A DNA stretch of 64,000 nucleotides from NCBI RefSeq assembly GCF_964204645.1, contig NC_134026.1, positions 620,001-684,000 on the forward strand. Direction: 5' to 3'. The DNA comes from Tubulanus polymorphus. Its lineage: Eukaryota; Nemertea; Palaeonemertea; Tubulaniformes; Tubulanidae. The translations under genes and the position numbers were made by a program. A model generated the notes under the pieces. It was not told the origin of the DNA. It saw only the letters and a program-made list of their open reading frames with translations, and did not search any database. Positions 44,774-63,930 of this stretch are shown in pieces (position 1 is the first letter of the stretch; each line of letters starts with the position of its first letter).

Positions 44774-45866
44774 ATGATGAAGCTGTAAGTAATTCGCTAG
44801 AAAATTCATCATTCAATTGGAACCTGCTTGACATTACTTTACGTAGATTTACCCAATCATGGTATTGATGATTTTGCGTTGTTTTTTTCTAGATCATTCT
44901 TACTAATCGCACTATCCGCAGTAATTGGATCTGTTGTTAGTCTGGATAAGACGACCTCATCATCCGACAACAACTTCCCTTCGAAACTCGCTAAACGACT
45001 GGCTAACGCACCGATACAGAATCTGCCTAAACCATTGCAATCTGATATAGCAAAAGAAACAAGGTATCATGATATGAATTCGTGCGGATGATTTTTACTT
45101 TATTGCTCCTGATATTCATGCAGTAAACACCGTGTTTGGTTCGGAATTCTTTCCTCAGTTGTTTCAGTTACTTGCGCTGGTTTAATCATTCGTTTTCTTT
45201 TCAGTACATGGTGTTGTGAAATTAACGTAGTGAAGCAGGGTAAACGGTCAATAGGAACCGCTGCTTATTACCGCACTAAACTATCATATACTGTTTACAA
45301 ATCTTGTGGAATAGGATCATGGGGCAGTTGTACTGACTATCTTCAACAATACAAGTAATTTGAAAAACTACTTTAAACGAGCAACATCGAGATCCTTCTT
45401 GATTAAATGTTGTATGGGACCTTCCGAACGTGGCTCATACTTCGTTTTGTTTTACTCCAAAAAACGATGAAGTCTTTTGGATTTTTTTTTAGGTTAAAGG
45501 TGGTCTATGGAATCAAGTATAAATACTTCACGTATAAAGAGCAATGTCCGACAGAATATCAGATATGTTGTTCCGGATACCTGTTAGTGGCTGGTCAATG
45601 CATGTGTAAGTACGATAGAAATCTCGACATCAATCTTTCGTCATTAAATATCTTGCGAAAAAAAAGAACCGTTACATTGTTCCGAAATCATGGACGACAT
45701 TTTGGTCATCTTTGTCACACGAAACGCAACCTCATTAAGGGTCGCACTAATGTTGTTTAAACGAGGAAGGAATTAGTTTATGTCTAATTATCTCATTTCA
45801 GCGCTTGAGTGGGTGAAGAAGAATCACAAGAAATTGATGGAACTCAATCTCATCGGTGCAATCTAA
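44774..45866 (+). CDS. EMI-like secreted cysteine-rich protein 1 (group I)
   Basis: Exons 44774-44784, 44893-45063, 45205-45354, 45493-45605, 45802-45866; 169 residues. Exon 1 is an 11-nt microexon (MMK plus two bases) and the signal peptide (MMKLSFLLIALSAV...) spans exons 1-2. Residues ~25-60 form a linker ending in an amphipathic segment (LPKPLQSDIAKE). The cysteine module has Cys 64, 65, 95, 103, 129, 136, 137 and 147: TWCC, SCGIGSWGSC, CP....CCSGYLLVAGQC. A charged helix-like tail (LEWVKKNHKKLMELN) ends the protein. The Y-x-C-x-W-G..C, repeated Y-x-V-x-Y and CCxGY..C pattern resembles an EMI domain, which in emilins mediates extracellular multimerisation. AATAAA at 45909-45914. It lacks the HWCC His and the CGTWGWSRC consensus of its neighbours, so it is the most divergent of group I. 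Confidence 0.8.
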
Positions 45867-46598
45867 TTATCGATGTCTATCGCATAGAATTCTATTAGTA
45901 TTGACGTAAATAAAGATAATTGTATGTGAACAGAAGAATATTTAGTTATTTGTTTAACTTTTCAAGCGGTTTTTATGACCTATTCACGCGGCGGTGAGAG
46001 TCGTGGTCAAGCGAAAATGCAAAACCGAAGCTGACTACATACCATTTGACGACCAACAGGACCTTACTACCGCATCGATTAGCATGAAAATCACTTAAGA
46101 TTTTCTCACAATATAACGTTAAACAGGCAATATTAAGAGAGGAAAAATCGAGAGAAAAAAATTCGAGAGGTTTATTCACAAAGTTGAATTGCTGTCAAGA
46201 GCTGCACTTATGGCGTGTTTATCATGTATGAGAGTCACCCGTTTCATAAGCTGACAATTAAAAGACCCACCGACCCCGATTGTCATCAGCCTACAGGGTT
46301 CAGACGGATTTTGTTGATGTACACAGGAGACAGGATTTATTAATTTCAAGTGTGCCTCTAACACCTGAAAGTCCTCGCTGTCAAATATCGTCACCATGGA
46401 CCAAGGCGTATCGTATAAACGGTCAATCAATGGTGATAATTTCACAGTTTATTCACATGTCCGACTCAGTGTGACCGAGATAAGAACTTATCTCGACAAG
46501 CAGATCATCGATCGGATAAGCTTTTCTGCGGAGGTGTTATGTCCGGTTCGGATATAGTGCCCCACCTCAATTTCCATATTGAAAATAGACTTTTAAAA
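45867..46598. other. Spacer between EMI-like genes 1 and 2
   Basis: Contains the gene 1 poly(A) signal at 45909-45914 and, near the right end, the inverted GATA sites. ORFs on the minus strand (45973-46179, 46176-46445) have no family features. Confidence 0.5.
46476..46523. promoter_or_regulatory. Inverted GATA sites upstream of EMI-like gene 2
   Basis: CGAGATAAG and CTTATCTCG are perfect 9-bp inverted arms separated by AA (46476-46495), about 105 bp before the start codon. GGATAAGCTT follows at about 46513. The same inverted-GATA design appears before gene 1. Confidence 0.45.
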
Positions 46599-48064
46599 AT
46601 GCAGCTGTAAGTTAGTGTGCGTGTGAACTGAATCGATGTATATTTAGACCTAAAATAACAGATCATCATGATATATTTTTCAATAAGATTGGCTGTAATT
46701 GTTCTCACTGGTTTCGCGTTGATATCGGCTGCTGATAATGTGACCGATGTTGACGCTGGTCAGCAGACGAGCAGTAATTTATTCGGCTGGCTCGCTAAAA
46801 CATCCATAGACGATTTTCCCGCCGAATTACAAAGAGACATCAGAGAAGCCGGAGTTATGTAAGTTTCGCTCAAATAATTAGATAAATCAGTGACGTCCAG
46901 CTATGACGGCGCGACAAATATTCTTTTAAGGATTTCCTCTCTTAATTCTTCATCTCTCTGGGGTCAATAGCTCATTAGTTGGTTAGAGTTAACTGATGTA
47001 TGAATGCTGAAGTATGAATGCTGAAGTGAAGATTGCAATTTGCAATGTAACTATGATTTGTCCACCAGTTAACTCTAATACCAACTTTTGAGCAACTGTA
47101 TCCAGAAGAGAAGTATAGGCTGGGACCTTTTTGATACTAGCATCGATTCAGCTAAATTATTGTAATATTTCAGATCTCACTGGTGTTGTTCGTTGAAACT
47201 GGTGAAATATAAACAGAGTAGTTTTGGAGCAGTCAAGTATTACTCGGTGTCGCATAGAAAAACTCATTACGGAAAATGCGGAACCTGGGGCTGGTCGAGA
47301 TGTACCTATCATAAAGTTCACTACTCGTCAGTTCATTTCGAACATATACTTTATTCATAGGCAATCGCATTCTAAACTTTTTCGCTCAATACATTTTATT
47401 TCTATTGATAAATCATTGCTTTTGAGTTGCAAATAATAGCCAGCAATAAAGGCATCATTTAAGCTAAAACAAAAAAGAGACTGACCAAATATTCAAAATC
47501 ACTTGACATCTGATGAATCGAACCCTGGGCCGTCAGCATACGAAGCCAGATGACCAACCACTACGCTACTGAACTGGTGTGTAGGGTGGCCTCTTGTACA
47601 TTCTACTTGACTCGTGGTCAGTGTTGGCGTCACCGCCATTCAGTTGGCGTCACCACCATTCATTCAGACTTGGTCCAGAAACAGAAGACAGGGCTTGATA
47701 AAGAAATCCCCCAAGTCATGTCAGCCTATACAAGAGTTAAGACATAATTTGGCAGGATATGTAATGAATTTAAATTGTGAATATTATTTGATTTGTAGGA
47801 GTAATCACCAATATGTGACCGGGTATTCAAGTGTGAGTTATAAGGAGAAATGCCCAGAGAAACACTATATCTGCTGTTCTGGTTATGTACTGGTAGCTGA
47901 ACAATGTATGAGTAAGTCTTTGTGTACGATCCATTTCAAATACATCCGTAAGCATTTTCTGGAAATATTCATAAAACACCATGAATTATCTTTTTACAGC
48001 CGTCGAATGGGTGAAGGAGCATCACAACGTACTGTTACAATTGAATAATGGTGGACATATTTAA
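46599..48064 (+). CDS. EMI-like secreted cysteine-rich protein 2 (group I)
   Basis: Exons 46599-46606, 46688-46858, 47174-47326, 47799-47911, 48000-48064; 169 residues, the same length as gene 1. An 8-nt microexon gives MQ plus two bases; the acceptor of exon 2 is a weak AAG (46687), chosen because it restores the family's frame, length and signal peptide. An alternative start at the ATG 46668 would also give a signal-like leader. Linker motif: LFGWLAKTSIDDFPAELQRDIREAG. Cysteine module: HWCC, KCGTWGWSRC, KCP....CCSGYVLVAEQC. Tail: VEWVKEHHNVLLQLN. Exon 3 ends at GTCAGT, a slightly unusual donor. The intron after exon 3 holds a tRNA-like sequence and the intron before it a foldback repeat. 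AATAAA at 48160-48165. Confidence 0.8.
46970..47093. repeat. Foldback element, about 25-bp inverted arms
   Basis: Left arm GCTCATTAGTTGGTTAGAG (from 46970, then TTAACTG) is the inverse of the right arm ending ...CAGTTAACTCTAATACCAAC (47065-47084) TTTTGAGC. Between them is a 14-bp direct duplication (TATGAATGCTGAAG twice). The left arm also resembles a tRNA A box. A MITE or SINE-derived hairpin in gene 2's second coding intron. Confidence 0.65.
47512..47574 (-). repeat. tRNA-like SINE head (candidate)
   Basis: On the minus strand, TAGCGTAGTGGTTGGTC (A-box-like) is followed at tRNA spacing by CAGGGTTCGATTC (B-box-like). An anticodon-loop-like TTCGTAT lies between. It sits in an intron of EMI-like gene 2 and most likely marks a tRNA-derived SINE. 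Confidence 0.5.
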
Positions 48065-48398
48065 ACATACCTCCAAACCTACAGAGCTTTGAAACATGAC
48101 GTTATATCATGACTTGATTTACTTTATGACAAACGTCTCTTGTTCTCATTAAAACTTAGAATAAAGTATTTTGAAATCTTGAATGATTTTTAGTTATTCT
48201 TTTGTTTTCTCGACTCCCTTTAGTTGGCTACATGTATATTGATAATTCAATTTATCCCCCATCGAATTCGATATCTATCCTTAATTGGATATGACGTAGA
48301 TATTTATATAAAGTGGTCAGATATCTTATCAGTTATTTCTGCGACCGAATAGGATACTTTTAATGGTGAGAAGATCGTTTGACCAATTCACGTCTAAA
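48065..48398. other. Spacer between EMI-like genes 2 and 3
   Basis: Gene 2 3' UTR with AATAAA at 48160-48165, then the TATA-containing promoter of gene 3. Nothing else seen. Confidence 0.6.
48305..48335 (+). promoter_or_regulatory. TATA box, GATA site and initiator of EMI-like gene 3
   Basis: TATATAAAG at 48305-48313 is followed about 25 bp later by CTTATCAGTTA, which combines a GATA-type site with a TCAGT-type initiator. The predicted start site lies about 70 bp before the ATG. This is the clearest core promoter in the array. Confidence 0.6.
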
Positions 48399-49885
48399 AT
48401 GAAGTTGTAAGTGACGAAGAGCAGTATTGGAATTGGAAGATTTTGAGGATTCTGAACAATTTCCGTTAAGATAATTTTACGGAGCTGAATTTATGAATAA
48501 TTAACGTATTGTAGGTTACTGAGTTTGGTTGTATTTGTTGTGTTTATCTATGTGGTGATTGCGAGTGATCGGGAGGATAGAGAAGTCGGAAATGACCTGG
48601 TCGGGTGGCTCGCTAGGACGAAATTACAAGATTTCCCATTGGATTTACAACGACAGATTCGAGCCGTTGGAGACAGGTTTGTTCAGTTCCAACCGTATTT
48701 TTCTCGCTTTTAAAAAATCAAATAGTTGTATAAGGTATCATTATTCCAGTACTAAATTCCGGGGCTGAATTGGGGGCCAAAATATTCCTAGGTAACGTTT
48801 TGAAATTTTGTTTGAAATATGAAACTCAAGCGCAGTTTATTGATACGTTACAAGCGTTACAATGAAAATCCATCCCTGCCATACGCTATTGTAACAAGTA
48901 GAAAAACCGTGCTATTGTTTTGTTGTTATTTGTTTTTTGTAGCTCACATTGGTGTTGTGCAATAAACGTCATTAAGTACAAGCATAGCACGTACGGTAGA
49001 GTGAGATATTACACGACACGACATCGAAACAAACGTTACAAGAAATGTGGGACCTGGGGCTGGTCTCGTTGTGTCGTCCACGATATAGTTTACAAGTAAA
49101 TTCATCTATATATATATAGAGAAGTTCAATTCTTAGAGATTTATAGTTCATCTGGACATTTTGAACTCAAGCATAGTAGAAATTGTAGAAAAAAGAAACT
49201 GATCTTAGTTAGGCCTATTCGTTTGTAGTATATATCGAAATTCTAAAGAAAGAAATATATTCATACCCTGCTTCCTGGTTTGATGAGATTTAAGAAAAAC
49301 ATCTTGCATTTATTCAAACAGGAAACAAGTCGGATACGCGGTCAAATACTCAGCTGTCAGTTTCAAGGAAACTTGTCCAAATCATCATCATACGTGTTGT
49401 TCTGGGTACATCCTCGTGGCGCAGCAATGTATGAGTAAGTTGAATGTGACAAAATTCATATTTCTACTAATAACCCTGGACATATTGCTGCGAAAAGTAT
49501 ACCGGGATTTTGGTGCTGAATTCGTTAAAAAAACGAGACTTCCCCAGGACCAAAATAAGTCGTAATTTTGCTGGAATTGCTTCAACCACAAGAAATTAAT
49601 AGAAAAAAATCCAATTAGGTTCATTTTCCAAGTATAGATAATGTATTTCATTCCTAAATCACATTGTATTGTAATCCTAAATGCTCCTAAATGTCATATT
49701 TATAATGTACATCGTCATCAGGTCAGATTTTGTGTGATATATTTCTACACTGCAGAAATTGACACTAAAAATGTAATGACACAGATTGAAATCGGTTAAT
49801 GATATTTATTTATTTTTCAGCCGTTGAATGGGTGAAAGAAAATCACAAAATATTAATCGAACTTAAAAATAAAGGTCATATTTGA
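48399..49885 (+). CDS. EMI-like secreted cysteine-rich protein 3 (group I)
   Basis: Exons 48399-48406, 48515-48676, 48943-49095, 49322-49434, 49821-49885; 166 residues. An 8-nt microexon (MK plus TT) precedes the exon encoding LLSLVVFVVFIYVVIAS, a strong signal peptide. Linker: LVGWLARTKLQDFPLDLQRQIRAVGDR. Cysteine module: SHWCC (Cys 61, 62), KKCGTWGWSRC, TCP....CCSGYILVAQQC, with tyrosines and valines spaced as Y-x-V-x-Y before the last part. Tail VEWVKENHKILIELKNKGHI. The module is highly basic (many Lys/Arg before CGTWGW). This is the clearest representative of group I. AATAAA at 49892-49897, immediately after the stop. Confidence 0.85.
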
Positions 49886-50195
49886 TTTGTGAATAAATAC
49901 TGTATTTAAGAAGAATATACACAAAGAATCAATAAAGGTTTATTAAGTATTCTATATTGCGATTGAGGAGGAATGACATTACGCAGTCTGCGCCAGCGTC
50001 CTATTTCAGAATGATTAGTGGCAAAAATATCGACGATGACACAGCTGTAGATTTTCCTATATTTCAGTTCCGATTTACTTGAATTTACAGTTCGTTCGTT
50101 ATCTATCATACACGAAAACAAACAATTGCCGATAAAAAAAACTAAAACTGTAAAATTTGAATTATTCGAAGCAGGCGAATTTTTCAACGGTCAAT
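49886..50195. other. Spacer between EMI-like genes 3 and 4
   Basis: Gene 3 poly(A) signal at 49892-49897 and the presumed gene 4 promoter; a GATA-type TTATCTATC near 50099. A minus-strand ORF (49906-50187) has no features. Confidence 0.5.
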
Positions 50196-51265
50196 ATGTT
50201 ATTTCGGTGTGTATTTTTGTCCTTGTTATTGACCGTGGTCAGTTGTACGGAACTGTCATCTGATCGGGTTGACGAGCAGATTGATGAACTCACCGGTTTA
50301 CCGATAAGACTTGTACGTTACCTGGCCACGGCGGACGTTGAAGAATTACCGGATGAAATACAACGAGAAGTAAGGAAGGCCGGAGATAGGTGAGTTTAAT
50401 ATGTAACAATACAAATCACTAGAAAGAGTAAAATCTAACGGCGACAAAAATGTGTTCGTGCAATTTACACTAGAATAAAGATAGAGTTGATAGCGATATG
50501 TTGAAGAAGATACATTTAAATCTTTCAGAACATTTTGTAATTTCTTTTTTAATTTATTGCGGAAGGAATTTTATTCGCATTAGAATTGAGTAACTGATTA
50601 ACTAAACAGAATGAAATTCATGAAACCCAACACATCAATTAACAATATCTCTTAATATTCGAAAACTTCGGTCGTAAGTCAGAAATGCCTGTTTTCAACG
50701 GCTCATATTTAGGAGTGAAAATATTCAAAAATTCAATTTCAGTTCTCATTGGTGTTGTCAGAAAGACACCACGCAGATCGTCGTGGAAACTAAAGGGGTA
50801 CAAAAATACCACCAAGTGACGCATAGACAGAAACGATACAAAAAATGTGGAACTTGGGGTTGGTCTCGCTGTACCACTTTCAGAGTGCATTATTCGTAAG
50901 TGAATATAAAAAAAGATTATGAAAGTGTTTTTTTTTGCCAAGTATCGTGATTACTGTCATGAATCATTTCAGGCAAGCGACAGCGTACGGAATTCAATAC
51001 AGCTCGAAGGTTATTAGAACTGAATGTCCCAATTCTATGGTGGTTTGTTGTAAGGGTTTCATTCTCGTAGCTGAACAATGCATCGGTAAATATCACCTAC
51101 AAATTCACCGAGTTACACCTGTTTCCATGTTTCCATGCTTCCGTGCATCGTGTGGCTTTATTGATCCAAGATTTATTCAAGAATAATTTCTATTTTCCAG
51201 AGTTAAGTTTGGTTTACAAACACAAAAATGATCTGTTAAGATTATCTCAACTGGGAGCGATTTAA
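50196..51265 (+). CDS. EMI-like secreted cysteine-rich protein 4 (group I)
   Basis: Exons 50196-50389, 50743-50895, 50973-51085, 51201-51265; 174 residues. Unlike genes 1-3 there is no microexon: the leader MLFRCVFLSLLLTVVSC and the linker are in one exon. The linker keeps the group pattern as VRYLATADVEELPDEIQREVRKAGDR. Cysteine module: SHWCC (Cys 69, 70), YKKCGTWGWSRC, ECP....CCKGFILVAEQC. The tail (SLVYKHKNDLLRLSQLGAI) has lost the VEWVKE motif. The reading frame is open upstream of the chosen ATG, but no other in-frame ATG precedes the signal peptide closely. AATAAA at 51309-51314. Confidence 0.83.
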
Positions 51266-51596
51266 GTGGATATGTCTCAATAGTTACGATGTAATTCTAT
51301 TTGAACGCAATAAATAATTGTAACTTGAAACACAACCGAATTTCTGTGTTTGTCTTTCACCGTGATGACGTGCGGTTCGGTTCTATTAGATTAGTACCAC
51401 TGCCGTTGGGTTTAGTTCTATATATGGCTTTATCTTAGACTAATGCTTAGACTCGATAACCACAACCATTAGTGTTTAATCGGTCGGTTCTGATAAAAAA
51501 TGGGTGTTAATGGTATCAAATTCCACCCAACATTTACAGGATCTCGGGGACTGGCATTGTTTCAGCGACTGATCATATTTTAGCTCGTGAATCACG
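51266..51596. other. Spacer between EMI-like genes 4 and 5
   Basis: Gene 4 AATAAA at 51309-51314, a possible TATA box (CTATATATGG, about 51418-51427) for gene 5 and GATA-type sites near 51428 and 51490. Confidence 0.5.
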
Positions 51597-52479
51597 ATGA
51601 TCTTTTTCCCGATTTTCTACACGATTTTGGGCGTCTTCGTTCTGGGCGCGTCACTGAGCGCAGCGGAATCTGAAGAAAGTCTATCGAATGAAATTCTCGA
51701 ATTCCTCGCCTCTGCTGAAGTCGAACAATTACCGTTTGGGCTTCAACGCATGGTTCGAGCTGCTGGAGACAAGTAAGTAGATGTCGGCAATTCGAATCTG
51801 CATTTCAACCAGAAAAAAAACTCTTTTTGATTCACAAATAGTAAAACGACTGAAATTTCTTTTCCTCATTGCCTTGACGGTTGCTGCAGTATGAACGATA
51901 ACTTATTTTCTAAGAGAAAAGTTTGGTTATGATTTCTATATTTCAGTATGCACTGGTGCTGTAGGGTTCCCACTACCAAACTGGTTGTTAACAGTCACGG
52001 TGCACAGAAATATATACACATCAGTCACCGACGGAAATACTACAGAAAATGTGGCACCTGGGGTTGGGGAAGATGCTCTACATATCAGGTGTATTATAAG
52101 TACGTCCTAAGATATCACTTGAATTCAAATAAAGTTAATTAGAAGGCCTAAGGGCTTTATATGACAGTAGTTCCCAAAGTGGTAAAACTATATATTCGTA
52201 CGTTTTTATTTTCAAGCCAAGGCGTTGCATACCATGCTATGTATAGGTCTTCGAGTATAGCTATATCCTGTCCGACTCATCACGCCACTTGCTGTCAAGG
52301 TTACATTCTAGTCGCTAAACATTGTCTCTGTTAGTATTTTCACTTTCTTACCGACCATTTTGATTTCATTACAAACTCATTGATGTTTAATTCTATCCCT
52401 TTTCGTTTCAGCGTTGGTTGAAGTGACCAAATACAAGCAAGATCTGTTAAAACTGCAGAACATGGGCATGCTTGGTTGA
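51597..52479 (+). CDS. EMI-like secreted cysteine-rich protein 5 (group I)
   Basis: Exons 51597-51772, 51947-52099, 52217-52329, 52412-52479; 169 residues. No microexon. Leader MIFFPIFYTILGVFVLGASLSA, linker ILEFLASAEVEQLPFGLQRMVRAAGDK. Cysteine module: MHWCC (Cys 63, 64), YRKCGTWGWGRC, SCP....CCQGYILVAKHC. The acceptor of exon 3 is a weak AAG (52214-52216), accepted because the exon then has the family's exact 113-nt length and phase; the donor after it is GTTAGT. The tail (LVEVTKYKQDLLKLQNMGML) is diverged like that of gene 4, with which it shares the fused first exon, suggesting a common duplication origin. Confidence 0.8.
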
Positions 52480-53846
52480 ATGAACATATATTCCTTCAAT
52501 TCAAAAATGAGCTGAACATCATTTTGCAATGAATAATAAACACATTTTATTCTGGAATCTTAAGTTTTGCTCATTTCATTTCAATTTATTCAAAGACAGA
52601 GATGGATTCACCTCCTATAAAAATGATTCACTGCCAAAGTAACCATTGCAAGACACGAAGAATTGTCCCAACTATACCACGCCCGTTTTCCAAAGATTTT
52701 TCCCAAATTTTCTGCGTTCTTAGAAACAAGACAAAAAAGAATCATCTAGAAATTAATGAATCGAATCTATCGTTATTGTGAGGAACTGTGAGCTATCAGA
52801 CTGCTGTCCTATACCGTTATTTCCTGAAACCATCATTTTTATCAATTTATCTTATCTGAAACATGATATCTGTGGTAAACAGCTGATAAAATCACATGAT
52901 TTTAAATGTCTGTAAAAACTATTAGGTACGTATTAACCATCAACCTTTCGACTGATAGAAAACGTAGTAAAGAACATAGAGACCACCGATCACTTAAACA
53001 TAGCTTTAGACCCTCCTCAATTCTGTGCTTTGAGTCTGTGAAATCGATAATGAAATATCTTTCCCTTTCCTTACTATATTTCACAAGGACCAGTTGAATC
53101 TGTCACTCGTAAATCTAAAATTGAGCCTGCAAATCAAACACTCAAAATCAATGAAATATTGTTTTAAAGTCTATAGTCGCTTCATTCGAAAAGTATTCGT
53201 ATAAAGAGACCTTTGTATGAAGAAGCATTCGATTCAACACAATAATTATAGCTGAAAATGTTGGTTAGTTTCAAAAATATTTCACGAAGAGAATCCTTTG
53301 CTTCAATGTTGTTCGATGCAATTGATGAAAATGGCTTTTTAAATATCAAATACGTCTCTATTAGATAAGAAAGATTACAAACATATACTGCACATACCAA
53401 GCGGTGCTGGGCATATTATAGTTTCATGTTGTTCCCAGATATGAAATAAAAAAGACAAAACATATTCATATGTAACTGAGTTGATATAAATCTAGAGAGT
53501 ATGATGTTATTGGAAAGAATGAAGAAAAAAATGACGAAGGATTTCTACAATATTTAATCCAATATATCCAGTCAGTAGATTTGGCTGGGCCTCATAATGG
53601 ATTTTTTATTAATACTATCAAAAACGTACGACAATAATTCCATTATTGGAGATATAGTTTATAATACTCTTCGTTATCAGATTTACAGGACGAACTTTAC
53701 ATAGTTTTAACTTAATTAACCATAGTGACGATAAGGCTATATCCAGACAGACCGCTAGATTCCCAGATCACAGTTCCGGAAGAATAGCTTTATTGGTCAG
53801 TCTTCAATTCTTGTCTAGATAGTACCATATACTCATCGCCGTTATC
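52480..53846. other. Spacer between group I and group II EMI-like genes
   Basis: 1.4 kb without a supported gene and without a recognisable EMI-like remnant. Opposite-strand ORFs at 52902-53097 overlap and are not convincing. The right end carries GATA-type sequences (TTATCAG near 53674, CGATAAGG near 53728). Confidence 0.5.
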
Positions 53847-54852
53847 ATGAAGTTTATGCTAGCACTTTTTGCCGCTTTTTGTGGCTTCGTCTGGTAAGAT
53901 CTTTTTAGTAAATGAATTAATATTCAATTCACTAAATTAGAAACTAATGAATCAACGTTAATAAAAACATACGAATCGAATCTCACAATGTTTCAATCTT
54001 TCGCTAAGCGCTCATCGTCAGGGTTTACAAAAATAACTATAGATTTTGTATTTTGAATTGATGAGATAATGGTTCATCAAAAAAACACATTTTTGTGAAT
54101 TATTTTAGTTATGAAGCTGCTAATGGATCGGGTCACTGGTGTTGTACCGTTGAAGTGAAACCCGAATTTAAAGAGATGAACTACACAAAAGCTGTACCAG
54201 ACTATAAGCAGATTAAACTAACAGAAACTGTTGGCTATGAAGAATGTTTTGGTGTTGATGGCGAAAGCACCTACTGTCCTGTGACAAATGAAAAAATCGT
54301 GTAAGTTAATTTTGCTGTTTGCTAAAATAGTTCGTATGGTAAAAATTCAATGATAATAATTTACGTATTTTGTGGTTTATTTCTACTGTTTCTAGTAACG
54401 TGACCCGCTATAGAATCAAACACGTCCATGAACTGAGAGAAATGAAAGGATCGTGCCCTCATGATAAACTCGATTGTTGCGATGGATATGTGAAATATAA
54501 GGACAACTGTTACGGTTAGTAAATCTACCGTTATCATCGCATAGAAATACAATAGATTACTGAATTCAAGTGAAATATATATTCGATATCGTAAGAAGTG
54601 TTTTAACACGTTACCAAATCAATATTTGGTCCATCAAAATGTTAGAAAGTAGGGAGATTATAGTAAAACAAGAAAACAATTTTTGTAGACCAACAAAATT
54701 ATTTGGTAACAGTAAATATATATTCATATTTTCATTGTTCTCATATTCGTGATTTCTTAAAAATTGTCACTTATTTTTGTCTTCATTTCATTCTAGGTAA
54801 TGACGAAATCGAACAAGTAAAATTGTTGGACAGCTTGGGTCTTCTCGGATAA
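53847..54852 (+). CDS. EMI-like secreted cysteine-rich protein 6 (group II)
   Basis: Exons 53847-53893, 54109-54300, 54396-54514, 54797-54852; 137 residues. A short leader (MKFMLALFAAFCGFV) is split from the module by intron 1. Module: GHWCC, a longer acidic middle pair ECFGVDGESTYC (nine residues between the cysteines), then SCPHDKLDCCDGYVKYKDNC. The tail IEQVKLLDSLGLLG is typical of group II. The linker of group I is missing, so the cysteine module begins soon after the signal peptide. An extra cysteine created at the exon 1/2 junction (TG|T) may be part of the leader or unpaired. It keeps HWCC like group I, so it may bridge the two groups. Confidence 0.8.
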
Positions 54853-55204
54853 TATGTATTATTTTTTTGAGAAATACACAATATCTACTGGGAAATCATT
54901 ACATTCTTTCTGTTTATCTCTTGTGGTACATCGGAGAAATTCCAACAACTGCGTGACTTATTATACTGCGTTCCTGAGTTGTCTGCATTCTGAACTCCCA
55001 ACTTCCTTCAAATTCAGTGCCGAAATCCCTTTTTACTTTTCGTAGGAATATTTTTGAGGTCATTGTGCGCAAGCTGAAAATGTAAATGCCAAATAAATTA
55101 ATTGCATACCACGGAGTTGTCAAACATAACACGTTTTCAAGATAAACCAAGTGTGTTGATATATTGATGTAAAATGTATGTTGTTGTCAGATAAACAGGT
55201 GACA
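54853..55204. other. Spacer between EMI-like genes 6 and 7
   Basis: The last ~120 bp (from about 55100) resemble the sequence upstream of gene 8: AGTTGTCAAA.ATAACAC and TTGTTGTCAGATAAACAG occur in the same order before both genes. Confidence 0.65.
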
Positions 55205-56078
55205 ATGATTCGAGAAGTCACGATTTTTTTGTTTTTCTGTGGATTTTTGTTGCATTTGTCAAATGCACAACAAAATAAACAGTAAGTTGTTTCTTTTAAG
55301 AGGATTTGATGTTTGAAAAAATGAACTACCCAATATTGCTGTTAGACAGTACCTCTCAGAAAGGTGCATCTCACACCCGTCAGAGTGTCAGAGAAATTTG
55401 ATTGTGGAACAGTTTAACTCAATTACATATCTATTTATCAGGTCGAGAAAGTGGTGCTGCGATACGATACGGCCATCAATTAAGGAACTGAGAGAGTTAA
55501 CATACGCTCTCAAAGTCATGAAAACCGTTATTCTTAAAAAGAAGGTCGGATATAAAAGATGCCCCGGTCGCCTTTTGAAAAAATGTCCTATCTATGAAGA
55601 AGTGAGGAAGTAAGGTTCCAAATTTTTTTTCGTTACACCTGAGGCTGGTTGCAATAATGAGTCAACCTTTTCCCGAGATTTAAGACCATTTTTAGATTAA
55701 GGCTACACCCCAGAATGCTTGCAGAATACTATCGGAATTCCTGCTACGATTTTCATGTTTTCCCTACAGACAGGTTCCTCGTTACAAGTCAATGCCTAAA
55801 ACTGAGCTGACAATTACTCCCGGACAATGTCCTGAGAAAGATTTGATTTGCTGCGAAGGATACGAAATGTACAAGGGCGAATGTTACGGTAAGGATACAT
55901 ACCAAAACACAATCAGTTTCATACGTTATCATTTAGATATAGATAGCCTTTATCCGCACTTTAATTGACTTTTTTGATGTTGTTTTTTTGTTCTTTATTC
56001 CTTTTTTTTCTATCAGATCCTACAGATATGGACAGCGTAAAGACTCTGGAATCGTTGGGTTTGCTCGGTATTAAGTAA
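55205..56078 (+). CDS. EMI-like secreted cysteine-rich protein 7 (group II)
   Basis: Exons 55205-55281, 55442-55609, 55770-55888, 56017-56078; 141 residues. Leader MIREVTIFLFFCGFLLHLSNA, with cleavage likely after SNA. Module: RKWCC (Cys 31, 32), RCPGRLLKKC, QCPEKDLICCEGYEMYKGEC. The middle pair keeps the seven-residue spacing but has lost the tryptophan-glycine of group I. Strongly basic between the first and second pairs. Tail DSVKTLESLGLLGIK. Closest paralogue is gene 8, including promoter and 3' end (AATAAA at 56096-56101). Confidence 0.85.
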
Positions 56079-56345
56079 TTTTGTCAACTATAGAAAATAA
56101 AACACGAACATCATCTCTGAGTTTTTGAGCTTTCGTTACATTGGGATTATGGCAAGCCCCGTTTGCTTGATTTTTTTATGGCTGGAAATATAGTGGAACA
56201 GAATTCACCTACAATCAACAGTCCATATTATTGACAAATGAATTAATAAGTACTATCACGTAGTTGTCAAAAATAACACATGTTCTACAGATATAGAATG
56301 TAGTTATTTAGCAATACATAATTGTTGTCAGATAAACAGTTGACT

Positions 56346-57229
56346 ATGTTTCGTGAAGTCGTAATTTTTTTGTTTCTCGGAGGATTTTTGTTGCATTCGT
56401 CGAATGCGCAAAACACCAGCAATAAACAGTAAGTGGATTTTCAAGGCTATTTCTGAACGATTATAAACTTGAACACTTAACTTTGAAACTTAATTCAAAG
56501 GTAACTGTTTTTTTTTAAATTTTTTATTTCACACTTGACCCATCCATTTGAAAAATCACTGAAACTCTGATAATTGGAATCTGCTCGTCTAACAAAAAGG
56601 ATTTGATTCCTGTATAGAAGATAAACTGAATTGAATTTCATCAACTTGAAATTGTTTGTGTAAGTAGACCCAGTGTTGTTTATGCTTTGTTTCTTTCGTT
56701 TTTAGGGTGAAAAAATGGTGCTGCGCCAAAACACCGAAACCGGTTGAGGAAAAAGTAACGTTAACTTACGCCCATAAAGTCATGAAACTGGTTGTTATTT
56801 ACAACATTAAAGAATATGAAAGATGTCCCGGTCGTCTTTTGAAGAAATGTCCTGTTCTACAAGAAGTGCATCAGTAAGATCAAAATCAATTTTAATGAAT
56901 GCAATTTCTTGGTTTTGCATAGAATACCTTCATAAAAAGCTCCTTATTTTTTCATCTCGCAGATATGTTCCTCGCTACGAGGTGAGGCGTAAAACTGAAG
57001 TGCTGAAATCCGCCGGGGTATGCGCCGATGAAGATTTGATTTGCTGTGAAGGATATGAAATGTACAAGGGTGAATGTTACGGTAAGAACGATTTCAAAAA
57101 CTGAATTTTTCAAGCGCATTAAAAATTCTCCGATGTTGATTTGATAAAGGAATTTTTTTTTATTTGACAGAACCATCAGCTTTGGAAAATGCGAAAGTTC
57201 TGGAATCTTTGGGATTGCTCGGTATCTAG
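56346..57229 (+). CDS. EMI-like secreted cysteine-rich protein 8 (group II)
   Basis: Exons 56346-56428, 56706-56873, 56963-57081, 57171-57229; 142 residues. Leader MFREVVIFLFLGGFLLHSSNA, module VKKWCC, RCPGRLLKKC, VCADEDLICCEGYEMYKGEC, tail ALENAKVLESLGLLGI. It is a recent duplicate of gene 7: leader, middle pair, last motif, exon 2 and 3 lengths (168 and 119 nt) and upstream sequence agree. The third cysteine pair has CAD where gene 7 has CPE, so the usual CP is not absolute. Confidence 0.85.
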
Positions 57230-57876
57230 CTTGAAATAACTTGTCAACTAAATAGAAAATAAAACATTATTACAATATTATCTCTAATAGATCGTTTAAA
57301 TTTGATTTGTTATAAATTCTGGGATTGTGACAAGATCTGCCACAGACGTAGAATGTAACTCGAACTCTGTAAGACCTTGGAGCAGTCTGATTACTCCAAG
57401 GTAAGACGTAGTATCTGTGGAAAACTAGAACGGTATTTAGAATAGGGACAAAGACAATGATTATTTTCCATTCATAAGTGTGGCTTTATGTAAACCAAGA
57501 GGTACAAAGACATTAAGTCACAAATATGCTCTTCAAACTAAATTCCAGTTAAGCCCTGCCAGTTCAGGTAAGATCTGAATCTTACTTAAACCTGATATTC
57601 ACTAATTTTGCCTTTTGAGCATTTATTGTTGTAGGTTTCGGGCTGCAACAACTCTCGAACTTACCCTTACCCTTCTACCGATAAGACATCGAAGTCGTGT
57701 GTTTGATTTATAATCAGTTGTTTTCTTTCTATATCCGTCATGTTGATTTATATATTTGTGTTTGTGCGTCAAGGTAAATATGGAAAATTAAACAATCGAT
57801 ACGTTATCTCATGGGATCTTTTAAAAAGTGAAAAAATGATACTTAGATCGGGAAATTAGATCGAGATTTGTTGACG
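57230..57876. other. Spacer between EMI-like genes 8 and 9
   Basis: Contains a small palindromic element (57340-57420), no gene and no EMI-like remnant. A TTATATATT near 57748 could be the TATA box of gene 9. Confidence 0.5.
57340..57420. repeat. Imperfect palindrome with two nested inverted pairs
   Basis: Outer arms CCACAGA / TCTGTGG at the ends and inner arms CCTTGGAG (57375-57382) / CTCCAAGG (57394-57401). Possibly a decayed MITE; no target duplication recognised. Confidence 0.45.
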
Positions 57877-58603
57877 ATGAGGACACAGATAGTTGTAGCG
57901 CTTTTTGTCTGTTTCGCTTTTGCGGTTATAAACACTGTCACCGCGGGTGAAAGGTTGGTAATCACTTCATAAACATTCTAACGCAACGATCGTGCGGCTT
58001 TTCTTCAGATATCTAACCACCATTCTGATAATCGTTGATTTTTGTTCGTTTTAGCACAAAATGGTGCTGCAATGTGACACCGGAAGTGAAAGAGGAGAAA
58101 CGTGTGATGTACTACGCGCAGAAGGTGATCGACAGGAAGTCTGTTATTAGCACTGCTGAATACTTGAAATGCATGGAAAAACATCGCAATTCAAAAGCTT
58201 ATAAACCATGCGGTACTCCAGTACCAAAATATGTGTATGTATTGGAATTTCTATCGTCTCTTTGTACCCACAACATTCCAGAAATTGAAAAGTTCAATCA
58301 GATACGAAAAATAATCTTGATTGTTCAGCTGAATAATGAATTTCCTCCTTTCTGTTTGAATCCAGAGCATCGATTCGTTACGTTAAAAAACAGAAAGTTG
58401 ACAAGGTGCAAGTAAAAGCAAGATGTCCGGAAGAAAATCTGGTTTGCTGTGAAGGCTATCAGCCACACAATGGCGACTGCTTGGGTAAATAATGAGACTT
58501 CGATGATATCCTTTCCCTTGAACATTTTCAGTTCATTTACATCATGATTGTTTTTCTTGTAGACGCAGAAGAACTCGCTTTAATGTTGGCACTTGGAATG
58601 TAA
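57877..58603 (+). CDS. EMI-like secreted cysteine-rich protein 9 (group II)
   Basis: Exons 57877-57953, 58055-58234, 58366-58484, 58563-58603; 138 residues. Leader MRTQIVVALFVCFAFAVINTVTAG. Module: TKWCC, a middle pair separated by twelve residues (KCMEKHRNSKAYKPC), then RCPEENLVCCEGYQPHNGDC. Tail shortened to AEELALMLALGM. The enlarged middle loop accounts for the 180-nt exon 2 against 168 in genes 7, 8 and 11, while exon 3 stays 119 nt. AATAAA lies just after the stop, near 58612. Confidence 0.83.
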
Positions 58604-59012
58604 TTCTTGACAATAAAAACATATATCAATACGAAACGTTTTCTTTTCTCGTCTTCTTACTTGAAAGGGATGATATTTCTTGTAACTTTCTGCGAGGATG
58701 TGAGAATTTGAGGAACAATCTATCCATGAGATGATTTATCAAATGCGTGGGTATTATATCGCCTATAACTACACGAATGTTTGGTTAATGATACAATATT
58801 CATAGATTGTGGCATTGATAAGAACGTGCCAGGAAGAGCTAGCGACGATTCACTATATTTATATGAAAAATAGAATAATCATTTATTTATTTAATTTCTT
58901 ATCACATTCAATGTGTGTCTACGGCGTAACGGAAACAGCTGTGAGCTATACCAGGGTAGATTCCTGCTATTTTCACAGCTAAAATTCAACCAGAAAAATC
59001 AAAATCTCTGCG
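58604..59012. other. Spacer between EMI-like genes 9 and 10
   Basis: Gene 9 poly(A) signal near 58612; a GATA-type TTGATAAG near 58815 and an AT-rich TATATTTATATG near 58852 that could serve as a TATA box for gene 10. Confidence 0.5.
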
Positions 59013-60047
59013 ATGAAGATCTTTATTCTTGTTTCTCTTATCATCTGCTTCGTGGAACTGCAAGCACAACTGCATAAACTCGAGTAAACCTCATTCTAAT
59101 CATTCCGCTACATTTCATTCGCGGTTTTCTAAATATTTTCCTAAGGCATTTTCTTCATTGTAGTACTGAAAAATGGTGTTGTTCGATTGTACCCGAGGAC
59201 AAGGTGGAAACGAAAACGTATTCGTACGCTAAGAAGACAGAGAAGAAGATAATGATCAAAGTAAAGAAAGGATACGAACCTTGCGAACATGAGTACGACA
59301 TTGAAGGAGAACCTACTGGAATGTCATGTACAGTTTACGAGAACGTACCGCAGTAAGTTTCTGTTCTTATGATGGAAAATTTGAAGAACCAAATTCGCAG
59401 TTGAATTCTCGGTTGAATATGACTCCATTGTTGAAACACATGGGATTTCTTACAACCTTAACCTGACCATTAGCTGTGGAACCGAATCCAGTAAATGCGG
59501 TAACTGCACGTGAATATTTGTTTACAGTACTGTAACAAGGTATAAGATTGACTGGAAAATTGAAGAGGTGAGGAATCCACAGAGATGTCCATCTGACAAA
59601 ATGATCTGCTGCGAGGGATATGAAATGTTCAATGGAGAATGTTACGGTTAGTAGCAGCCCAGCTATACTTATATGTTGGAAAATTGTAACGATGACAAAC
59701 TACTTTGATTTCTAATGTCTCCATTTTCAAACATTTCATCATCAACAATCAGGCAATGACATTTTGAGCTTAGGCTTATAATATCTTCTTATTTTAATAA
59801 TTTGATGAAATACTGTGTCCTTGTTTGAAACTACTCCTACGTTCAGATAGAAAGCAAAAAGAGTCGGAAAAGGTTTCTATGTGTTGATGATTCATTTTCC
59901 ACGATTCGACGATATCCTAGTATAGTTATCATCATTCTCGAATTCATTCAGAGTGTGTTCTATATCATCTTCTGATCTTATTTTGCAGAACCATCAGAAA
60001 TCGAGAACGTGAAACTACTGACATCCCTCGGATTGATGACCAAATAA
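59013..60047 (+). CDS. EMI-like secreted cysteine-rich protein 10 (group II)
   Basis: Exons 59013-59083, 59164-59352, 59528-59646, 59989-60047; 145 residues. Leader MKIFILVSLIICFVELQAQ. Module: EKWCC, a very lysine-rich stretch (KKTEKKIMIKVKKGY), the widest middle pair of the array (fourteen residues between PC and SC), then RCPSDKMICCEGYEMFNGEC. Tail EIENVKLLTSLGLMTK. Its 3' end faces gene 11 on the other strand, with stop codons 97 bp apart. AATAAA near 60118, inside the converging region. Confidence 0.83.
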
Positions 60048-60144
60048 TAACAATGTACACGTCGTATATCTATTGATAAAGTTACTTCATGTATCTGTTG
60101 TATTCATCAAATGCATTGAATAAATCTATCAAATAAACATCAGT

Positions 60145-61216
60145 TTATCCAAGTCCAAGGTTTCCTAACATCTCGGCAATCTCGGCGTCTTCTTTCGCTG
60201 TGGACAGAAAAACGACGACATATGAGGAAATTGAAAAATTTCACGAAAAATTACATGAAGTGTACTTTTTGCCAATCTTAGAGATAAAACATATTTCCGA
60301 TGCTATACGTGACGTCATAGAACTAGTTCCCAAACATCATATTGACAATGGCATGGCAATGGACTGTGACTTTTACTTCAGTTAACCGCTCGCGTTTGAT
60401 GGTCAATATACCGTGACGTGAGTTCGCGTAAAATGACCACGATTATATTTGACTTACTCAGACATTGTCCATTGACGTATTTATAACCATCACAACAATG
60501 TAGATATTGTTTAGGACAAGGAACGTTCAGGTGAACTTGTTTGGTCACGTGTTGAATGACGTAACGAGGAACCTGACTGAAAATAGATACAAGCAGCGTC
60601 ATTTAAAAAAAACCGTTGATAAATGATCGTTGGTGACGATCTTTGAATTAAACGGCTGGTTGACCTGAAAGTCATACTGGTCTCAAAGGTTCAACAATTT
60701 TAACCACGGGACTTCTTAAAATACGGGAATACGATACAAAATATGATTCAGATATAAAAAATGAAAAAAACAACATTCATAACTTACCTGATATACTCCT
60801 TATAAATAGGACAGTCATATTGACCGGGGACTATATCATCTTCACATTCTTTATATCCTATTATTGATGTCCTGGTTATATTTTTCATGATAAGTTTTGC
60901 TTCTGTAATTTGCATCTTCTCAGTTCGTTCCGTCTCGATGCTGCAACACCAGCTCCTGTTAAATAGGATAGAATCATAAGCATTAAGATCATAGAATTAG
61001 CCGTTAGTTGGCTATAAAGTTAATGGCACTAAAGACTAGTAATTCACTTTTAAAGATAGCGAAATGATAGAATTGAAAGATATAAAATGATTTTGAATTT
61101 AACATCTTGACTTACTGCTCCTTTTTCCCATTATTCTTGTTCGGTTTAGCCGATGAACCGAGGCAAACTACCGATGTGAATAGAGCTAAAACTAAAACCC
61201 GCTTGACCAGTTCCAT
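60145..61216 (-). CDS. EMI-like secreted cysteine-rich protein 11 (group II, inverted)
   Basis: Exons (minus): 61116-61216, 60788-60955, 60458-60576, 60145-60197; 146 residues. The only array member on the minus strand. Leader MELVKRVLVLALFTSVVCLGSSA, then an Asn/Lys-rich spacer (KPNKNNGKKE). Module: SWCC, ECEDDIVPGQYDC, PCPKQYLHCCDGYKYVNGQC. Tail EIAEMLGNLGLG. Exon 2 (168 nt) and exon 3 (119 nt) match genes 7 and 8 exactly, so it belongs to group II and was inverted after duplication. Upstream on its own strand are a TTTATATC (about 61296-61303) and a TGATAA site. Confidence 0.83.
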
Positions 61217-61625
61217 ATTCAATCATATAATATGAAGTTTAGATGTTTCTATATAGGACTGTAATTAGACTATCAGTAAACGTTATCAGCAAAATGATAT
61301 AAACGCGAAAAACTAATTGCTGTCCACTCAATTATAGAATATCCATGTCTCGTAATGGCTCCATCCAAATCCATAAATAGGTCAAATATTGCTCATCTAC
61401 TGTTGTTTACCTCAGAAAAGGCAACAGCATTTTGAATAATATGATCTGAAAACGAAGTGAAAATCATAAAAAGTCAATATGATATATTCACGATTTCACA
61501 TGAAACTAGACCACAACTAAATAGCTTTTAACGTTATCTTGGTCATAATTGATATAAGTGATATAGAATCCTTACCTTTTCAACACATTAAACCACTCGG
61601 CGATTTGATGACCAGTGTTCTCAGG
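61217..61625. promoter_or_regulatory. Divergent promoter region of EMI-like genes 11 and 12
   Basis: 409 bp between divergent start codons. It holds a TATA-like TTTATATC for gene 11 on the minus strand, TTATCAG at 61283-61289 and GTTATCTTGG near 61535 for gene 12. Function inferred from position. Confidence 0.45.
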
Positions 61626-62925
61626 ATGCAGTTGTCGTTCTACCTGTTATTGGTAAATGTTTTAAGCGCAGTTGTAGAAGTTGAAGTAACCAGGAGTTTG
61701 TCAGACGATGCTATCGAATTGACCAACCGCAAGTAATCATTACAGATACATCGATTACATTATTTCTGAATATCTCATTTGTTTGTAATAGGATAAAAAT
61801 TTGTCGGTTTGTTTCCGTGACTGAAAGTATGAGAGATAAAGAAATTCATAATAAACTAATTGTGACTAGAGGTTATACAGATGCATCTATGTTTTCGGTG
61901 ACCATCGTTTATATTCGTTATAACCACCTTTCAACCTGATGAACGATCCCACAATTGATGATATCTTTAGTTTTACATTTTAACGGTTTCGATAAATCTG
62001 AATCTTTTCTTCACAGAAAGGGTAATGATCGACATTTTCGATGATCAGCATTTCCGTTTCTCTGTAGCTGAAGTATCATGAATCATAGTAACTGGAAATC
62101 ATTGTGGAATCGTTCATCATACTGAGAATCAGTTTATCACCGTCACCTTTCTACTTAACACTTCTATAAAGTAAAATAAGCTAAAATTATTTTCTTGATA
62201 GATTTCCTTGATGAATCATTTAGTAATTGCTCCTCGTCTATTCAGCGTTGGTGTTAACTACTGCTGTAAGAACAGGCCTGTGAATGCAGTTGAGAGAACC
62301 CGTGTAACTGCGCGTAAGAAGGCTGAACGATCAGAAGTCCGAATCGGTAAACAGGACTGTGGATTGTGGGGAATGAAAAATTGCGATAAATATGACTACA
62401 AATACAGGTTTGTTACAAGATAGACACCTAACTGTCCTTTTCTCGAAATGTATCTTTCTGTGTGTATCATGTATTTGTTATTTGTAAGAATGTAGTATTC
62501 ATATTCATCTAAACTAGGAGACATTCGTGGCCAATCTAGAGAAACTAATGTCCATAAATCTTACATATAGTTGAACGTAGGGTGGAAATACTACCCCATT
62601 TTTCTTTTAACAACTCGCAATTATACATTTAGAATGTCTACGTACTATGAAGTAGAGAGGTACATGGCGACTGTAGACGGTTCATGTCGTAAGGAAGATA
62701 TAGTTTGTTGTAATGGTTATTTACATATAAAAACTGTCAACAGATGCGTCCGTAAGTGAAGCTTCCAGGTGTCATGGTTTACGAAATTGATGCCATATAT
62801 AATCATGGATTAACTATGGATTTCTATCAACTCTTAACATCATTTATCTCATCTTTTATGAATTCTTTTTTCTTTCATATCTAGTGTTGACGGAATTAGA
62901 GAACTTGCTGAACCAACTCGGTTAG
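61626..62925 (+). CDS. EMI-like secreted cysteine-rich protein 12 (group III)
   Basis: Exons 61626-61732, 62246-62407, 62633-62751, 62885-62925; 142 residues. Leader MQLSFYLLLVNVLSAVVEV, followed by a short acidic linker (LSDDAIELTNRK). An in-frame ATG six codons upstream is an alternative start. Module: NYCC (Tyr replaces Trp), then DCGLWGMKNC, which keeps the CGxWG of group I, then SCRKEDIVCCNGYLHIKTVNRC with two more residues in the last loop. Tail LLTELENLLNQLG. The CGxWG motif plus 119-nt third exon combine features of groups I and II. The module is very basic (ARKKAERSEVRIGKQ). Confidence 0.82.
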
Positions 62926-63337
62926 GCCATCGACTGATGTACGTCCATGGTTTGGCACACACTGAACATGCTCGCACAGGGTCTAAAGATGAATTCGTTG
63001 CCGAACAGAAATACTGAATTGCCGAGCCATACAAAATAGTGGAATTCTTTATCATAAATCATTTAATTGAATTCTTAACTGATTCCGAATAAAGTAAATT
63101 TGTTTAAACATGCATTCGATTATTATGACTGAAAGTCAATGCACAATTTCAAACTCTCGAACTGAAGCTTTTTTTATTATGTGAATATGCAACATTGGGC
63201 AGGAAATTATCGTTAAACGTTTTTTGTTTATCTTTATGGTAATTTTATCATGCACTGGTTGTTAAAATTCCCAGCCACCCGTCTACAGTTCAAAACGTTT
63301 TGATACTACATCAAAATAATTCGGCATTTGTGGAACT
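62926..63337. other. Spacer between EMI-like genes 12 and 13
   Basis: Gene 12 3' UTR (AATAAA near 63090) and gene 13 promoter region with a GTTTATCTTTATGG sequence near 63226. No other gene seen. Confidence 0.5.
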
Positions 63338-63930
63338 ATGAAATTCCTCGTGATTTTGGCTTTATTTTTGGCTGTCGCCGTGGCCGAAGAAGATGCTGAA
63401 CGGATGAAACGTTTTCTGTCTTCCAGGCAGTATGATCTCCCATCGGAAGTATTTCAATTAGCCAAAAGAAGCAGGTTCGTTAGAAATGTCAGCCAGAAAA
63501 AAATCAATTTCGTTAACAATTCGTGTCAGGCCTATACTCTTCATGGTCAACGATCATTTCAGCAATGGCAATTTCTGTTGTAAAAATCTACCGGTCACCA
63601 CGGTAACCAAAACACGTCTGGTTAAGAGGGAGAAAGTCGAGAAATCCGAACACAAGATCGGCAAACAGGACTGCGGTTTGTGGGGATTGAAAGATTGTGA
63701 TTTATATGACTTTAAGTACAGGTTCGTTGATATCAGATCAAATCGATTTTTGAAAATTCATTTATTGAAAGATGATAATTATGAAATGATGATTATAATT
63801 GTTTTGTATAGAATGTCGTATTTTTACGAAGTGGAGAATTTCATCACGACAGTTGACGGAACCTGCGCTGAAGAGAACATAGTTTGCTGTAATCAGTACA
63901 TATTTGTGAAACCTCTTACAAAATGTGTCC
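63338..63930 (+). CDS. EMI-like secreted cysteine-rich protein 13 (group III), 3' end outside window
   Basis: Exons 63338-63474, 63563-63721, 63812-63930 are visible; the last coding exon (a short helix-like tail in the paralogues) must lie beyond the right edge, because the third exon ends at a GTAAGT donor. Leader MKFLVILALFLAVAVA, acidic residues, then a linker (LSSRQYDLPSEVFQLAKRSR) like the group I amphipathic linker. Module: NFCC (Phe replaces Trp), DCGLWGLKDC, TCAEENIVCCNQYIFVKPLTKC, so the usual CCxGY is CCNQY here. Closest paralogue is gene 12 (shared KIGKQDCGLWG). The third exon is again 119 nt. The array may continue past the window. Confidence 0.82.

Follow-up and report, generated by a model that had tools for sequence, protein, structure and literature searches.

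The 64,000-nucleotide window studied here (C2:620001-684000 of the 268-Mb, 77-contig genome of the animal Tubulanus polymorphus) carries near its right end a tandem array of small genes for putatively secreted proteins, each built around a single cysteine-rich module that resembles the EMI domain of extracellular proteins. In manually built gene models, which follow splice sites and reading frames, 13 genes start inside the window, between positions 44777 and 63338, and each has GT-AG introns and one complete spliced frame (Table 1). The sequence-only reading had predicted 13 small genes with a leader and one eight-cysteine module in the order CC, C, C, C, CC, C, and the prediction holds, as all of them splice into complete frames. 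The array is larger than was then described, however: the end of g13, the 13th gene, lies outside the window at 64122, and four further genes (g14-g17) follow past the right window edge on the minus strand (L002, 64337-69716 in window numbering), bringing the array to 17 genes in 25 kb. Also missed were five dispersed copies and the furin-type sites described below, and g11 had been placed on the wrong strand; its spliced model runs on the minus strand. All four-exon genes have intron phases 2, 2, 1, and g1, g2 and g3 each have one additional tiny first exon.

Table 1. Genes of the array that start inside the window (positions in window numbering; lengths in amino acids, aa).
Gene	Group	Exons	Strand	Length	Remarks
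g1	I	44777-44784, 44893-45063, 45205-45354, 45493-45605, 45802-45866	+	168 aa	spliced model, phases 2,2,2,1
g2	I	46599-46606, 46688-46858, 47174-47326, 47799-47911, 48000-48064	+	169 aa	spliced model
g3	I	48399-48406, 48515-48676, 48943-49095, 49322-49434, 49821-49885	+	166 aa	spliced model
g4	I	50196-50389, 50743-50895, 50973-51085, 51201-51265	+	174 aa	spliced model
g5	I	51597-51772, 51947-52099, 52217-52329, 52412-52479	+	169 aa	spliced model
g6	II	53847-53893, 54109-54300, 54396-54514, 54797-54852	+	137 aa	sub-threshold Pfam EMI match, E 0.22, 12.8 bits
g7	II	55205-55281, 55442-55609, 55770-55888, 56017-56078	+	141 aa	spliced model
g8	II	56346-56428, 56706-56873, 56963-57081, 57171-57229	+	142 aa	youngest pair, with g7
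g9	II	57877-57953, 58055-58234, 58366-58484, 58563-58603	+	138 aa	spliced model
g10	II	59013-59083, 59164-59352, 59528-59646, 59989-60047	+	145 aa	spliced model
g11	II, inverted	61116-61216, 60788-60955, 60458-60576, 60145-60197	-	146 aa	spliced model
g12	III	61608-61732, 62246-62407, 62633-62751, 62885-62925	+	148 aa	spliced model
g13	III	63338-63474, 63563-63721, 63812-63930, last exon 64079-64122 beyond window	+	152 aa	spliced model

The family proteins are 83-181 aa long, those of the array 83-174 aa, and share one plan: a hydrophobic leader, a pro-segment (in part of the family only), one cysteine module, and a short tail. The module spans 85-98 residues (32 in g17, where the exon part with C3 and C4 is lost), and none of its eight cysteines varies among the 19 aligned full-length members. 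It opens with W/Y/F-C in 20/20 aligned members and has the motif CC-x-G-[YF] in 19/20; retention of a W between C3 and C4 is limited to g1-g5, g12, g13, and two dispersed copies, those at C2:13.01 Mb and C4:18.96 Mb. The motif Y-x-K-C-G-x-W-G-x-x-C that had been given for groups I and III needs correction, as most of group I reads C-G-x-W-G-x-x-x-C and, in group III, the Y before the third cysteine occurs only in g14; in place of the CCxGY ending given for the same groups, g13 reads CCNQY. On the constant cysteine frame, module net charge varies between -3 and +13, with group I modules strongly basic (+7 to +13). The stand-alone architecture that had been proposed is upheld: all complete models stop after a tail of 14-28 residues beyond the last cysteine, a stretch that could form an amphipathic helix, and in the spliced models no further cysteine follows the module. 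The family proteins are also free of repeats and of collagen, coiled-coil, gC1q, or mucin-like stretches. Intron 2 of g13 (window 63722-63811) is 90 bases long, in frame and stop-free; its retention would lengthen the module by 30 residues.

A search of the genome with five family members as queries recovered five single relatives outside the array, at C2:13.01, C2:23.64, C2:28.18, C1:1.12, and C4:18.96 Mb. Four of them are complete stand-alone models with phases 2, 2, 1; for the C2:13.01-Mb copy, no first exon could be located. That copy is flanked by two very similar frames in opposite orientation (L040:2926-3501, minus strand, and 9089-9670, plus strand), which are probably a mobile element. 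A furin-type site, R-x-[KR]-R, occurs in five family members (g15, g16, and the copies at C2:23.64, C1:1.12, and C4:18.96 Mb), 6-9 residues upstream of the module's opening W or F. Taken together, these sites, the leader, and the cysteines suggest that the proteins take the secretory pathway and act outside the cell. The position of the sites directly before the module would also suit convertase-processed signalling ligands, akin to cystine-rich growth factors or hormones. We consider this quite unlikely for the family, given that groups I and II have no such site, that group II has no pro-segment either, and that 17 diverged tandem copies of widely different charge would be unusual for a ligand.

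The evidence for kinship with EMI comes from profile matches, gene structure, and losses of cysteine pairs. In a scan with 24,736 Pfam models, EMI (PF07546; curated cut-off, 25 bits) is the sole recurrent family, with matches in 8/19 members, all of them sub-threshold (best E 0.11). None of 39 cysteine-fixed shuffled sequences matches Pfam EMI. As the signal disappears when residues are shuffled around fixed cysteines, more than cysteine spacing must be shared. The group IV consensus scores 12.9 bits, and the all-member and group I consensus sequences bring no gain. In a profile-profile comparison, the family scores 18.7 against an EMI profile, whereas 200 cysteine-fixed column shuffles have a mean of 11.4 (standard deviation, 2.3) and only 1/200 reaches 18.7; the EMI profile holds three sequences only (one from this genome and two PDB chains), and because it is so thin, the support it gives is modest. 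The Pfam scans show no FAS1 match among family members. Matches of the family in NCBIfam are isolated and attributable to chance.

The only locus in the genome above the Pfam EMI cut-off, at C2:21.04 Mb, encodes an EMI domain followed by collagen repeats. The phases around its two EMI exons are 2, 2, 1, the same as in the family, and its intron 1 splits the codon one residue before W-C, identically to g1, g15, and the C2:23.64- and C1:1.12-Mb copies. Compared with the family, its intron 2 is four residues closer to the preceding cysteine and its intron 3 one residue farther from the last cysteine, and agreement of three intron phases alone has a 1 in 27 chance. A TGFBI/periostin-like gene (L066:2216-2338, minus strand, with FAS1 frames downstream) contains an EMI half-exon with flanking phases 2 and 1, which reads CCSGF, without the usual proline.

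Variants that lack cysteines provide a further line of evidence. In the C2:28.18-Mb copy, C1 is replaced by V and C7, the second cysteine of the CC pair, by P, and the spacing to the last cysteine is kept. This joint loss, a single case, is consistent with an EMI-type C1-C7 bond. In TGFBI, the two positions lost in this copy form the bond C49-C85, and the first cysteine of the CC pair is bonded to the last cysteine (C84-C97). In g17, the joint loss of C3 and C4 suggests a C3-C4 bond, which would leave C2 to pair with C5; both of these bonds are put forward provisionally, from single cases.

Beyond the thin profile and the 1 in 27 chance, several observations weigh against descent from EMI. No member reaches the EMI cut-off, the best single protein scoring 12.8 bits versus 25. 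In an alignment with the EMI domain of this genome, EMI cysteine 2 (~10 residues after the first) is absent from every member, and two cysteines are added, one directly after C1 and one preceding the CC pair. Nor is the proline that follows CC conserved. The C1-x4-[S/T] motif, which POFUT3/4 fucosylate in EMI domains (PMC11949838), is present in just 4/20 members. When the family profile was searched against PDB sequences, no EMI chain was recovered; the searches were either empty or returned chance septin matches. Structure prediction took as input the g13 frame read through two coding exons and the 90-base, in-frame intron between them, aligned with exon fragments after exclusion of alignments that placed exon 2 rows on exon 3; the two resulting models are of low confidence (mean predicted local distance difference test scores, 53 and 58). 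Comparison of these low-confidence models with PDB folds gave no EMI structure, and only unrelated matches were among those listed (best Foldseek E 1.2; VIA-align Z <=4.2). TGFBI and periostin are likewise absent among the fold matches listed for the weak models, which has no bearing for or against an EMI fold.

Read together, the scores below the cut-off, the missing and added cysteines, the profile searches, and the fold comparison of low-confidence models could describe an unrelated eight-cysteine family whose likeness to EMI arose through convergent W-C, C-W-C, and CC-x-G-Y motifs. We regard such convergence as unlikely, as the EMI signal vanishes in cysteine-fixed shuffles, the family shares its intron 1 codon and all three intron phases with this genome's EMI gene, and the paired cysteine loss fits an EMI-type bond. 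The W-C start, the C/W/C pair, and the CC-x-G-[YF] end are present in EMI order. The EMI likeness claimed by the sequence-only reading survives in these respects, but not as regards the Pfam cut-off, EMI cysteine 2, or the fucosylation motif; the Pfam search it had proposed finds EMI recurrently, always under 25 bits. We conclude that three partly independent tests (Pfam, intron phases, and cysteine-pair loss) support distant homology to EMI, not clear membership. The family appears EMI-derived, but we do not file it as a member of Pfam EMI because of the missing EMI cysteine 2, the added cysteines, the scores below the cut-off, and the early end of the protein.

Several features indicate that the array genes are functional. 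An AATAAA polyadenylation signal lies <=250 bases 3' of 16/17 array genes, compared with 29% of random 250-base stretches. The ratio of nonsynonymous to synonymous substitution rates (dN/dS) is 0.44 for g7/g8, 0.18 for g4/g5, and 0.24 for g3/g4, with dS nearly saturated in the latter two pairs, and these values indicate purifying selection; in five other pairs tested, dS is saturated and hence yields no ratio. The absence of the middle cysteine pair from g17 might be read as a sign that the array consists of decaying or non-expressed duplicates. This is very improbable, as all frames are intact, splice sites and phases are kept, and both the polyadenylation signals and the dN/dS values below 1 in all three measurable pairs (0.18-0.44) speak against it. 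In the tree of the family, g1-g5, g6-g11, and g12-g14 form blocks that are contiguous on the chromosome, whereas g15 and g16 group with the dispersed copies. Contiguous blocks of paralogues and mostly saturated dS imply an old array that expanded through local duplication. On its sequence, g7/g8 is the youngest duplication of the array. The start and leader DNA of these two genes (window 55181-55270 versus 56322-56411) is 86% identical, above the remainder of the genes.

Overall, we think it probable that these genes encode small secreted proteins with one free-standing EMI-descended module, which expanded mainly by local tandem duplication and serves as an extracellular binding unit. A family protein would enter the secretory pathway, where, in members with a furin-type site, a proprotein convertase would cut off the N-terminal segment. 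The module would then fold with four disulfides, of which C1-C7 and C6-C8 would be EMI-like and C3-C4 and C2-C5 new, and the short amphipathic C-terminal helix may pack on the module or pair subunits. Outside the cell, the mature module would bind proteins or acidic glycans. The wide range of charge on a fixed cysteine frame suggests diversified binding partners. Precedent exists in other proteins: NimA and PEAR1 need their EMI domain for cell adhesion (PMC13076899), and a role of EMI in protein-protein interaction and multimerisation has been proposed (PMC11949838).

Which function such binding would serve can be ranked only tentatively, and the matrix, mucus, shell, adhesive, or defence role suggested as possible by the sequence-only reading is still among the candidates. 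The likeliest role, although we would not put it at even chances, may be recognition or defence borne by secretion. In second place, and rather unlikely, the proteins may be structural components of a secretion, that is, EMI-derived building blocks that assemble through their C-terminal helix into a mucus, cuticle, shell, or adhesive matrix. The EMI domains of EMILIN and multimerin have been proposed in multimerisation (PMC11949838), and the strongly basic group I modules would suit acidic polysaccharides. However, the proteins are short and devoid of the repetitive, collagen, coiled-coil, gC1q, or mucin-like stretches named above, and no EMI protein from an invertebrate shell or adhesive turned up in literature searches. 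The processed signalling ligand considered above would come third.

EMI domains head elastic-matrix, platelet, and phagocytic-receptor proteins, in which their own activity is hard to isolate, and a study of mammalian proteins describes them as consistently single and N-terminal (PMC11949838). Single-module proteins, together with variants that lack a cysteine pair, would offer a minimal unit for studies of structure, disulfides, and binding. Such a family would also show that an extracellular adaptor domain can turn into an independent, duplicating gene family. Literature searches for stand-alone EMI proteins of molluscs, shells, mucus, venom, or adhesives found none, and, in line with the sequence-only reading, nothing like a stand-alone EMI-like tandem family was encountered. 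It is conceivable, though we hold it with reserve, that this is the first family of free-standing EMI modules to be described, with convertase release in some members, a rewired set of four disulfides and a tandem-diversified repertoire of secreted binding proteins.

Other features of the window lie to the left of the array. Positions 1-2793 hold a 930-aa frame, open at the left window edge and without a Pfam match, that is possibly a mobile element. On the minus strand at 16836-18654, two adjoining stretches encode similar cysteine-rich segments, one of which weakly matches Ly-6/uPAR-like QVR (E 0.0043). An intronless gene at 28979-29938 encodes a rhodopsin-type seven-transmembrane receptor of 319 aa (Pfam 7tm_1, E 3.6e-20). 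Six RanBP2-type zinc fingers are encoded at 38888-39796, followed by frames rich in FG-type repeats to ~42000, and this region looks like a Nup153-type nucleoporin gene.

The inferred family overlaps only in part with known EMI-containing systems. Insect Nimrod proteins (NimB, NimA, and Draper) share the CCxGY motif and are secreted or surface proteins, and the Nimrod genes form a tandem cluster in Drosophila. In contrast to the family, in which no cysteine lies beyond the module, they continue with NIM or EGF-like repeats after CCxGY. TGFBI and periostin share the ending CC-x-G-Y-x(5-9)-C (CCSGF in the TGFBI-like copy of this genome), but there four FAS1 domains follow EMI, whereas the family frames end after the module. 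The EMI domains (PF07546) of EMILIN, multimerin, EMID1, and collagen XXVI likewise begin with W-C, contain a C-x-x-W-x(3-5)-C pair, and end in CC-x-G-[YF]-x-C; secretion is also shared, as are exon phases 2-2-1 by comparison with the EMI gene of this genome. EMILIN-type EMI carries its C2 ~10 residues after C1, whereas the family has no cysteine there and instead has cysteines next to C1 and before the CC pair. In EMILIN, multimerin, and collagen XXVI, EMI forms the N-terminal part of a long protein that also contains collagen, coiled coil, or gC1q, whereas the module of this family stands alone.

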